64,000 nucleotides of DNA from Desulfovibrionaceae bacterium (GTDB lineage: Bacteria > Desulfobacterota > Desulfovibrionia > Desulfovibrionales > Desulfovibrionaceae): positions 1 through 64,000 of the forward strand of contig JADFXV010000009.1 in NCBI GenBank assembly GCA_015233395.1, read 5' to 3'. Shown piece after piece: positions 10,739-51,586 of the stretch. Both the position numbers and the translations under genes were made by a program. How positions within the stretch are numbered: position 1 is the first letter of the stretch; the number at the start of each line of letters is the position of its first letter. The notes under the pieces were generated by a model. That model was not told the DNA's origin and searched no databases. It saw nothing but the letters and a program-made list of their open reading frames with translations.

Positions 10739-11605
10739 ATGGCGAGGCAGACGGTGCGGGACATTCTCGGCAAGTCCGAGGAGTATTTGAGCGGCAAGGG
10801 TGTGGACAGTCCGCGTTTGTCTGCCCAGTTGTTGGCGGCGTTTGCGCTCGGCATGGACCGGATGCGGCTTTTTTTGGATTTGGACCGGCCGCTTGGCGAC
10901 GCCGAGTTGGATTTGATCCGTCCTTTGATCGCCAGGCGCGGCCGGGGCGAGCCCGTGGCGATGATCGTGGGCGAGAAGGAATTTTTCTGCCGGCCGTTCG
11001 CGGTCTGTTCCGAGACGCTTACGCCGCGTCCGGAGACGGAGCTGCTCATCGAGATTGTTCTGGAGCGCGTGGGCCGCGCGGCAGCGATTCGTTTCGCCGA
11101 TTTGGGCGCGGGTTCGGGTGTTTTGGCCGTGACCGTGGCCTGCGAATTGGCGGGCGCCGCTGGTGTGGCCGTGGACGTGAGTCCCGGCGCGCTCGCTGCG
11201 GCGCGGGCCAACGCCGAGCGCCACGGGGTCGCGTCGCGTATCGAATTCGTGCTCGGCGATTTCGGGGACGTTCTGGCCGGCGGCGGCTACGACGTGATCC
11301 TGACCAATCCGCCGTACGTGAGCGAGGCGGAGTACGCGGGCCTATCGCGCGAGGTGCGCGATTTCGAGTCCAAAAGCGCGCTCGTGCCGGGGGCAAGCGG
11401 TCTTGAGGCGTACCGGTCGATCGCTCCGGCGGCGTATGCGGCGCTTTCGCCCGGCGGCTTTGTGGCCGCCGAGATCGGGTGGACCCAGGGCGAGGCCGTG
11501 TCCGGGATTTTTGGCGCGGCCGGTTTTGAGAGCATCCGGGTGCGCAAGGATTTAGCCGGTCTGGACCGGGTTGTCCTGGCGGATAAACCCGCCTCTACGG
11601 CGTAA
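10739..11605 (+). CDS. prmC: Release factor glutamine N5-methyltransferase
   Basis: Methylates the glutamine of the GGQ motif of release factors using SAM. The 288-aa protein has an N-terminal helical substrate domain and a Rossmann methyltransferase domain with the SAM motif ADLGAGSGVLAVTVA and the catalytic NPPYVSEAEYAGL tetrapeptide. Position directly after prfA is the classical arrangement. GAGGTAA precedes the ATG. Confidence 0.95.
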   Translation: MARQTVRDILGKSEEYLSGKGVDSPRLSAQLLAAFALGMDRMRLFLDLDRPLGDAELDLIRPLIARRGRGEPVAMIVGEKEFFCRPFAVCSETLTPRPETELLIEIVLERVGRAAAIRFADLGAGSGVLAVTVACELAGAAGVAVDVSPGALAAARANAERHGVASRIEFVLGDFGDVLAGGGYDVILTNPPYVSEAEYAGLSREVRDFESKSALVPGASGLEAYRSIAPAAYAALSPGGFVAAEIGWTQGEAVSGIFGAAGFESIRVRKDLAGLDRVVLADKPASTA

Positions 11606-11638: not shown

Positions 11639-11676
11639 TGTGTTGTTTTCGACACATCTGTGGTGTGGGCGACACA
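11639..11676 (+). promoter_or_regulatory. Tandem 18-bp dyads upstream of a sigma54-type promoter (candidate activator sites)
   Basis: TGTGTTGTTTTCGACACA at 11639-11656 and TGTGGTGTGGGCGACACA at 11659-11676 are two imperfect dyads of the form TGTG-N10-CACA, spaced exactly 20 bp. They lie about 67-105 bp upstream of the -24/-12 element, the usual place for a bacterial enhancer-binding protein. The activator is unknown. Confidence 0.55.
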
Positions 11677-11740
11677 ATGCACGAGCGCAAAGACTGGCGA
11701 GTTAAGCACATAATATCGGGATGTTATCCTGTATAAAAAG

Positions 11741-11757
11741 TTGGCATAAGGCTTGCT
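11741..11757 (+). promoter_or_regulatory. Sigma54-type (-24/-12) promoter
   Basis: TTGGCATAAGGCTTGCT matches the TGGCACG-N4-TTGCW consensus with GG at 11743-11744 and GC at 11755-11756, exactly 10 bases apart. Predicted transcription start is near 11768. No long gene follows; a strong terminator lies about 60-95 bases downstream. Confidence 0.7.
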
Positions 11758-11767
11758 GATGAAGAGA

Positions 11768-11864
11768 TCAGAGATGACTGCGGTGTCCGCCCACTCCGGT
11801 CGTCGATTTTTCCCCCTCAATGCGAGGAAAGCCCCGGACCGCCTGGTTCGGGGTTTTCCTTTTT
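11768..11864 (+). ncRNA. Candidate sigma54-dependent small RNA (about 97 nt)
   Basis: Defined by the predicted start of the sigma54-type promoter and the U-run of a strong intrinsic terminator. The body holds CGGTGTCCGCC, GTCGTCGATTTTTCCCCC and the terminator stem. A short open frame starting ATGACTGCGGTG crosses the terminator and has no good ribosome-binding site, so I prefer a regulatory RNA. No match to a known RNA family is claimed. Confidence 0.5.
11828..11864 (+). terminator. Intrinsic terminator of the candidate small RNA
   Basis: 13-bp stem AAAGCCCCGGACC / GGTTCGGGGTTTT (two G-T pairs) around the loop GCCT, followed by TTTTCCTTTTT. It separates the sigma54 transcript from the downstream small gene. 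Confidence 0.8.
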
Positions 11865-11904
11865 CAGCGGCTCGTTGTGCCGGCGTCTGCGTTTGTCGCA
11901 AAAA

Positions 11905-11990
11905 AGTGGTTTTGTAGCGCCTCCGGCGGCCAAAGGGCTGCGCCCTTTGGAATCCCATATCATTTTAGGTTGTTGCGCAGGCGATTTGTG
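11905..11990. repeat. Family-C intergenic repeat
   Basis: Contains GCGCCTCCGGCGGCCAAAGG, then GCTGCGCCCTTTGGAATCCC and ATCATTTT. The reverse complement matches the elements at 36175-36262 and 51005-51105. No gene is seen between the small RNA and 12146 apart from this repeat and the promoter at 12063. Confidence 0.65.
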
Positions 11991-12062
11991 GGCGTGAGCT
12001 GGCGAAGAATAAATTGAACGAGAGGCTCGGACAAGATTGGGAAAAAAAGTTTCGCTCAGGGC

Positions 12063-12090
12063 TAAAGATTCGCTCGGCGCCGGCCGATAA
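12063..12090 (+). promoter_or_regulatory. Sigma28 (FliA)-type promoter
   Basis: TAAA at 12063-12066 and a perfect GCCGATAA at 12083-12090, with 16 bases between them (consensus 15). Predicted start is near 12098, giving a leader of about 49 nt to the small gene at 12147. This would place that gene in the flagellar late regulon. Confidence 0.6.
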
Positions 12091-12146
12091 GCACGGTGTA
12101 AGGACCATCAGGTCCGGCGTAGGCGCGGCAAAAGGCGGTGAGCGAC

Positions 12147-12389
12147 ATGACGGCGTCGGTAAGCGAAGGTTTCGCCCCGCCAGGGGTTTGGGTCGGCGAA
12201 AAAGCCGTTTCGGGCCAGGCGACCGGGGACGCCCTCGGCGGCGCGGCGGCGTCCGGCGTGGCCGCGGCGCAAAATCCGGCGGCAGTTTCGCAAGCGGCGA
12301 CGGCGGCGGCTCAGACCAACGACCAGGCGGTTCAGGCCGCGATTTCCCAGGCCACGGGCAAGGGGATGAAAGTCAACACCGTAGTCTAG
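12147..12389 (+). CDS. Small Ala-rich protein, candidate flagellar-regulon (YjfB-like?) protein
   Basis: An 80-aa protein starting MTASVSEGFAPPGVW. It has an Ala/Gln-rich middle (AATAAAQTNDQAVQAAI) and the C-terminus GKGMKVNTVV. No signal peptide, TM or cysteine is seen. The ATG at 12147 follows GGTGAG; an in-frame GTG at 12138 is less likely. It shares its C-terminal pattern (GKGxxxxTVV) with the 69-aa protein at 22273-22482, and both genes are preceded by GGCGGTGAGCG. A sigma28-type promoter upstream suggests a motility role. Resemblance to short YjfB putative motility proteins is only a guess. Confidence 0.6.
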   Translation: MTASVSEGFAPPGVWVGEKAVSGQATGDALGGAAASGVAAAQNPAAVSQAATAAAQTNDQAVQAAISQATGKGMKVNTVV

Positions 12390-12417
12390 TCGACAAATCA
12401 ACCGGTTTTTCAAACAA

Positions 12418-12460
12418 CAACGGTCCAGTCTCTTGCGAGGCTGGACCGTTGAAGTTTTTT
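12418..12460 (+). terminator. Strong intrinsic terminator between convergent genes
   Basis: Stem CAACGGTCCAG / CTGGACCGTTG extended inward by CTC/GAG around the loop TTGC, followed by AAGTTTTTT. It ends the small gene at 12147 and lies just beyond the dnaK stop on the other strand. A family-A fragment (TTTTGGAGATGGGGTTTTCC) follows to 12486. Confidence 0.85.
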
Positions 12461-48846: not shown

Positions 48847-48922
48847 GGGCCTATAGCTCAGTTGGCAGAGCCACCGGCTCATAACCGGCAGGTCCCAGGT
48901 TCGAATCCTGGTGGGCCCACCA
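48847..48922 (+). tRNA. tRNA with CAT anticodon (elongator Met, or Ile2)
   Basis: A complete 76-nt cloverleaf: acceptor GGGCCTA/TGGGCCC, D arm GCTC/GAGC, anticodon loop CTCATAA (anticodon CAT at 48880-48882), T arm CCAGG-TTCGAAT-CCTGG and encoded ACCA end. The G1-C72 pair excludes initiator tRNA. The first anticodon-stem pair is an A-C mismatch. Elongator Met and lysidine-modified Ile2 cannot be told apart by eye. Confidence 0.93.
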
Positions 48923-51207: not shown

Positions 51208-51577
51208 GGGAGCCGGACGGGCCATCGCCGCGGACCGCAAGGTCCGGGGAGGAAAGTCCGGGCTTCGCAGGGCACGACGCTGGGTAACTCCCAGGAGGAG
51301 CGATCCTCGGACAGCGCCACAGAAAGCAAACCGCCGCGCGGCAAGTCCGCGCGGTAAGGGTGAAACGGTGGGGCAAGAGCCCACCAGTTGCCGCGGCGAC
51401 GCGGCAAGCTCGGCATACCCCGTCGGAAGCAAGGCCAAATAGGGGGGCGCACGGACCGGCCCGGTTCATGCCCCCGGGTAGGCTGCTGGAGGCCGGGAGC
51501 AATCCCGGTCCTAGAGGAATGATGGCCGCCCGGGCCGCAAGGCCCGGGAACAGAACCCGGCTTACAGTCCGGCTCCC
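51208..51577 (+). ncRNA. rnpB: RNase P RNA, bacterial class A
   Basis: About 370 nt. Conserved core blocks are in order: GAGGAAAGTCCGGGCT, ACAGAAAGCAAACCGCC, AGGGTGAAACGGTGGGG with AAGAGCCCACC, AAATAGGGGG, CTAGAGGAATGATGGCCGCC and ACAGAACCCGGCTTA. The ends pair as P1: GGGAGCCGGAC (51208-51218) with GTCCGGCTCCC (51567-51577). P1 is followed by ATTTTATTT, which may serve as the terminator. Confidence 0.96.
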
Positions 51578-51586
51578 ATTTTATTT

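Follow-up and report, generated by a model that had tools for sequence, protein, structure and literature searches.

A probable sigma54-dependent small RNA present in two copies on what may be a retained lpxC switch in an lpxC-less Desulfovibrionaceae genome

We describe a small, stand-alone RNA gene that occurs twice in the genome of a Desulfovibrionaceae bacterium (G000) and that, as far as its sequence allows us to judge, is probably sigma54-dependent and placed on a retained lpxC switch together with the activator of that switch. This reading rests on the observations that the regulator of lpxC has been kept, that lpxC and lpxB have been lost, and that the lpxC promoter of relatives is built alike. 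One copy lies in the window (the whole 64,000-nucleotide stretch of contig JADFXV010000009.1 that was analysed), where it occupies the intergenic region that separates prmC (10739-11605) from a small gene (12138-12389) and comprises the following features, given with their counterparts in the second copy (copy B):

10739..11605, + strand: prmC, followed by lpxC in relatives that make lipid A
11639..11656, + strand: enhancer dyad 1, TGTGTTGTTTTCGACACA, of the form TGTG-N10-CACA and fitting TGT-N12-ACA; its copy B counterpart is TGTGTTGTTTGCAACACA
11659..11676, + strand: enhancer dyad 2, TGTGGTGTGGGCGACACA, identical in copy B
11677..11740, + strand: enhancer-promoter spacer, 44% identical to copy B and so not itself conserved
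11741..11757, + strand: sigma54 -24/-12 promoter, TTGGCATAAGGCTTGCT, from a pattern scan; copy B has TGGCACGGGACTTGCT
11767..11864, + strand: predicted non-coding RNA of ~98 nt, its start placed from the promoter and its end from the terminator
11773..11804, + strand: 5' hairpin, a 9-pair structure in common with copy B
11805..11823, + strand: single-stranded linker with UUUUUCCCCCUCAAUG, 100% identical in copy B and proposed as the antisense seed
11824..11864, + strand: intrinsic terminator with U-run, from fold prediction in both copies

The original prediction had placed a sigma54-type promoter with GG and GC 10 bases apart in this region, and the site was recovered at 11741-11757, where a 10-bp gap in a TTGGCA-N6-TTGCW context separates GG (11743-11744) from GC (11755-11756); the pattern TGGCAYN5TTGCW occurs once in the window, against 0.06 expected. 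The two 18-bp TGTG-N10-CACA dyads that it had described 20 bp apart are likewise present at 11639-11676, their starts and centres 20 bp from each other with 2 bp between the dyads, and such a pair, allowing up to 2 mismatches, was found once in the window and in 0 of 100 shuffles. Measured from their starts, the dyads lie upstream of the promoter TGGC by 83 and 103 bp, a normal distance for an enhancer, as had been supposed. The transcript, earlier put at about 97 nt, has a predicted length of 98 nt (~11767-11864) and a predicted fold of 5' hairpin, open linker and long terminator stem with U-run, with a folding energy of -46 kcal/mol (z = -4.9; 0 of 200 shuffles as stable). The terminator and its U-run were borne out, and the stem was corrected from 13 pairs to 17. 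Together these features support the cassette as a sigma54-type promoter with paired upstream sites and a predicted stand-alone sRNA, a reading already offered in the original prediction and one that fits the shuffles, the conservation by part in copy B, the lack of a conserved frame, the terminator and the separate sigma28-like promoter of the next gene.

Copy B had gone unnoticed in the original prediction, as had the connection to lpxC. It was found by a DNA search of the window genome (E 1e-25), covers the entire cassette (G000:C32:3128-3356, L031, minus strand), is unlinked to the window copy and does not adjoin prmC, standing isolated, flanked on one side by a divergent gene for a chemoreceptor-like protein (HAMP and PAS domains) and on the other by a convergent WbsX-type glycosyltransferase gene. 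Identity between the copies is 92% in the dyads, 71% in the sigma54 site, 62% in the 5' hairpin, 100% in the linker and 90% in the terminator, with 44% in the spacer and 31% downstream outside the conserved parts, a pattern drawn from two sequences that could be one recent duplication. The copy B promoter, TGGCACGGGACTTGCT, is a textbook sigma54 site, and its RNA (~95 nt) is predicted to take the same type of fold (again 0 of 200 shuffles as stable), all 25 base pairs common to both RNAs being preserved. Within the 5' hairpin the 9 common pairs are kept through one double change (U-A to C-G) and two one-sided changes, the covarying pair (n = 1, from two sequences) not being significant. The UUUUUCCCCCUCAAUG linker is predicted to be unpaired in both copies (p about 0.8-1.0).

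The RNA appears to be confined to this genome within the material searched. A covariance search for conserved structure among relatives, named in the original prediction as a means of checking it, was run across 149 family genomes and returned the window copy and copy B at ~119-120 bits each, with scores of at most 39 bits elsewhere and no third copy; the best further match (39 bits) and the others that were inspected look like ordinary terminators and are without dyads or a sigma54 site. A 20-mer core pattern recovered only the two G000 copies from 149 family genomes, the other matches that were checked being unrelated sequence (for example within a coding region in L070 and L071). No copy beyond the two in G000 was found by a DNA-level search of 39 relatives, no close relatives were found by a scan of public genome contigs for prmC homologues, and an Rfam search with the RNA gave nothing near threshold.

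The promoter region has counterparts among relatives. Searching 149 family genomes for the dyad pair identified G064, with an identical 2-bp gap and 20-bp spacing, together with G082 and G128, and in each of these the dyads are followed by a sigma54 site and then by lpxC as the next gene. The same pair lies downstream of prmC in G078, where the contig ends soon after, and prmC is directly followed by lpxC in G063 and G144, in which both genes are in view. A wider survey covered 30 lpxC loci of the family, 26 of them readable automatically; every one of the 26 has a sigma54-like site whose distance to the conserved LpxC start motif downstream is 76-94 bases, and about half have dyads upstream with at most 1 mismatch. 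In D. vulgaris the EBP DVU2934 has lpxC (DVU2917) as its single target and shares one operon with the HD-GYP response regulator DVU2933 (PMC3333781, PMC4114195). The genome-wide search for TGTG-N10-CACA that had also been put forward as a check was carried out in G000, and the two sRNA loci alone combine exact sites with a sigma54 site no more than 250 bp away. We consider the cassette switch most likely to be the ancestral lpxC promoter, still standing after prmC where relatives keep lpxC, a descent argued from position, layout and regulator retention and not from alignable intermediates; the dyads would be sites of the DVU2934-type regulator, to which they are matched by association. Dyad pairs of the TGTGGC type in genera g9 and g36 were set aside as belonging to another regulon: these TGTGGC...GCCACA clusters (L113, L118, L119, L120) have their own sigma54 site, are followed by a dicarboxylate-carrier-like gene and likely mark a separate EBP regulon.

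Profile searches gave no LpxC candidate in G000 (a draft, 98.9% complete) and identified LpxC in 42 of 59 family genomes; LpxB was found neither in G000 nor in any of the 15 lipid A-less genomes compared. Both profiles came back empty in G000 and in genera g9, g10, g15, g36, g37, g42, g51 and g52, and several of these nine LpxC/LpxB-negative genera have genomes in 1-6 contigs; the absence suggests lipid A-less lineages inside the family. Behind prmC, the 15 lipid A-less genomes have tRNAs or unrelated genes, with neither dyads nor a sigma54 site. Lipid A loss falls in more than one branch of the prmC tree, so the history of G000 may be its own.

The regulator itself has been kept in G000 as an intact NtrX-like EBP of 463 aa (G000:C136, L193:8196-9587), with receiver, AAA+ and Fis-type HTH domains and with GAFTGA present, the best NCBIfam model being NtrX at a score below the cut-off. 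It stands directly after a receiver-PAS-HD-GYP gene, which is the DVU2933-DVU2934 arrangement, and this partner is of the c-di-GMP phosphodiesterase type. Orthologues of the DVU2934-type EBP occur in all 16 lipid A-positive genomes tested (14 with lpxC seen directly, G001 with LpxB and G078 with the promoter near a contig end) at 56-67% identity, those included in the tree grouping together with 100/100 support, whereas none was found in the 15 lipid A-less genomes other than G000, where the best matches (at most 49%) are paralogues in the tree; the co-occurrence of this regulator with lipid A genes is not independent of phylogeny. G000 and 7 of the 16 lipid A-positive relatives also have the adjacent HD-GYP gene in common. 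Locating the regulator by synteny near lpxC failed in G063 and G060, and the HD-GYP neighbour identified it instead. In G001 (genus g2), LpxB and the DVU2934-type regulator are accompanied by no match to the LpxC profile, which is probably due to an assembly gap or to recent loss.

The sRNA pair might instead be genuine but newly assembled, with its dyads recognised by another EBP and its position after prmC a coincidence unrelated to lpxC. Room for such an origin is given by the approximately 15 EBPs with an AAA+ core encoded in G000, by the use of TGT-N12-ACA half-sites in more than one EBP family, e.g., QseF/GlrR (PMC6075780), and by copy B, which does not adjoin prmC. Yet in lpxC-bearing genera the same dyad pair with its 20-bp spacing precedes a sigma54 promoter, with lpxC after prmC, and among the lipid A-less genomes the lpxC regulator is kept only in G000, which makes an independent origin unlikely. 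We judge it very unlikely that the cassette is a dead relic, in which the lpxC promoter and leader outlasted lpxC and the transcript is functionless: lpxC is indeed gone with its promoter locus still recognisable, but between the two diverged copies linker and terminator agree at 90-100% of positions against 44% in the spacer, the 463-aa regulator with its GAFTGA is encoded by an intact gene, both the promoter locus and the regulator were lost in lipid A-less relatives, and the RNA is unlike the short lpxC leaders of relatives. A reading frame conserved between the two copies was looked for and none was found, in line with the earlier view that there is no credible gene inside the RNA. Least probable of all is that the transcript encodes a small peptide as a short mRNA or forms the leader of the downstream gene (12138-12389), for although frames do stay open through the terminator (e.g., from the ATG at 11774, and ORF 11820-12017), copy B offers no start codon for the 11774 frame, the frame from the ATG at 11820 is without a ribosome site, differs between copies mostly by non-synonymous changes and diverges after the terminator, and the downstream gene has a sigma28-like promoter of its own (TAAAG...GCCGATAA) kept in both copies.

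Returning to an sRNA pair on a retained lpxC switch, we propose that the phosphorylated DVU2934-type regulator would bind the dyads and activate sigma54 transcription, such that a regulator formerly serving lipid A synthesis would now serve the RNA, lpxC and lpxB being lost. The predicted RNA has its own promoter and terminator, no conserved frame, a stable structure and an exposed conserved segment, as is typical of bacterial trans-acting sRNAs. It would probably act in trans as a post-transcriptional, antisense regulator, in which the exposed C-rich UUUUUCCCCCUC stretch of the linker may be the seed of antisense pairing and the invariant unpaired UUUUUCCCCCUCAAUG linker could pair with purine-rich, GAGGGGG-type Shine-Dalgarno regions, altering the translation of envelope or motility genes. 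More tentatively, we see it as quite possible that the lipid A regulator outlived lipid A, and that an sRNA, later duplicated, took the place of lpxC, the regulator's only ancestral target, at this locus and under the same enhancer and promoter, so that a switch for expressing an enzyme became one for an RNA that serves the remodelled outer membrane of an LPS-less diderm independently of Hfq. Were this true, a regulator would have outlasted the pathway under its control by swapping a protein-coding target for an sRNA, with the ancestral promoter in place, and one regulator with apparently two target loci would offer a simple genetic handle on how an outer membrane is managed without LPS. A lipid A-less group within a family of classical Gram-negative sulfate reducers is also indicated.

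The Hfq profile PF17209 gave no match in six family genomes (G000, G008, G040, G084, G063 and G060) and did give matches in control genomes, and the Hfq of this family may be divergent or absent altogether. This weakens a classical Hfq-type antisense model, so the proposed action of the RNA would proceed without Hfq or with another chaperone. A scan of the genome for antisense targets returned 12 weak two-mismatch sites besides the two sRNA loci and no convincing mRNA target for the linker; one of the 12 overlaps the ribosome site of a HigA-like antitoxin gene, which we do not claim as a target, its duplex energy ranking 13th against 66 window sites. A role as a Csr-type sponge was rejected, repeated GGA loops being absent.

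Multicopy sRNAs with sigma54 promoters under one EBP are familiar from the Qrr sRNAs of Vibrio, which are controlled by LuxO, act in quorum sensing and are Hfq-dependent; the cassette RNA differs from them in sequence and is without an Rfam match. The GlmY/GlmZ system of Enterobacteriaceae, with QseE/QseF (GlrK/GlrR), resembles the cassette in its sigma54 sRNA promoter, multiple TGT-N12-ACA sites, response-regulator EBP, two homologous sRNAs and link to the cell envelope (PMC6075780, PMC7073468). In contrast, the cassette RNA is shorter, its regulator is NtrX-like and not GlrR, and its promoter is apparently shared by descent with lpxC and not through glmY-qseEGF synteny; membership of the GlmY/GlmZ family is excluded by the absent Rfam match. 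Closer to home, sigma54-dependent ncRNAs of D. vulgaris have been reported as targets of DVU0653, DVU0679, DVU1419 and DVU2359, and these too are stand-alone, under control of an EBP and sigma54 and apparently from the same family (PMC4641369, PMC3333781). The class of sigma54-driven sRNAs in Desulfovibrio is already known, and the expectation in the original prediction that a sigma54-controlled sRNA after prmC would be new holds only in part: what appears to be novel is an lpxC promoter and enhancer rewired to an sRNA in an lpxC-less genome, and its duplication. The D. vulgaris ncRNAs differ in answering to other regulators, and two of them adjoin their regulator gene; for DVU2934 the assigned target is lpxC alone, with no RNA, and replacement of lpxC was not reported there. 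The DVU2934-lpxC regulon matches the G000 system in enhancer layout, in the sigma54 promoter after prmC and in a regulator with an HD-GYP neighbour, and differs in that the output in G000 is an RNA at two places, lpxC being absent from the genome.

A second homologous block (73%) lies beside both sRNA copies (window 12041-12430 and L031:731-1122) and holds a gene for a small alanine-rich protein with a conserved sigma28 (FliA)-like promoter, TAAAG-N-GCCGATAA; given that it accompanies both copies, the duplicated unit would join the sigma54 sRNA to a small gene that is likely of flagellar class. Downstream of the window cassette this gene encodes 83 aa, with 0 matches in Pfam/NCBIfam. Elsewhere in the window, 51209-51580 and 48847-48922 hold RNase P class A RNA and tRNA-Met, both ordinary annotation.
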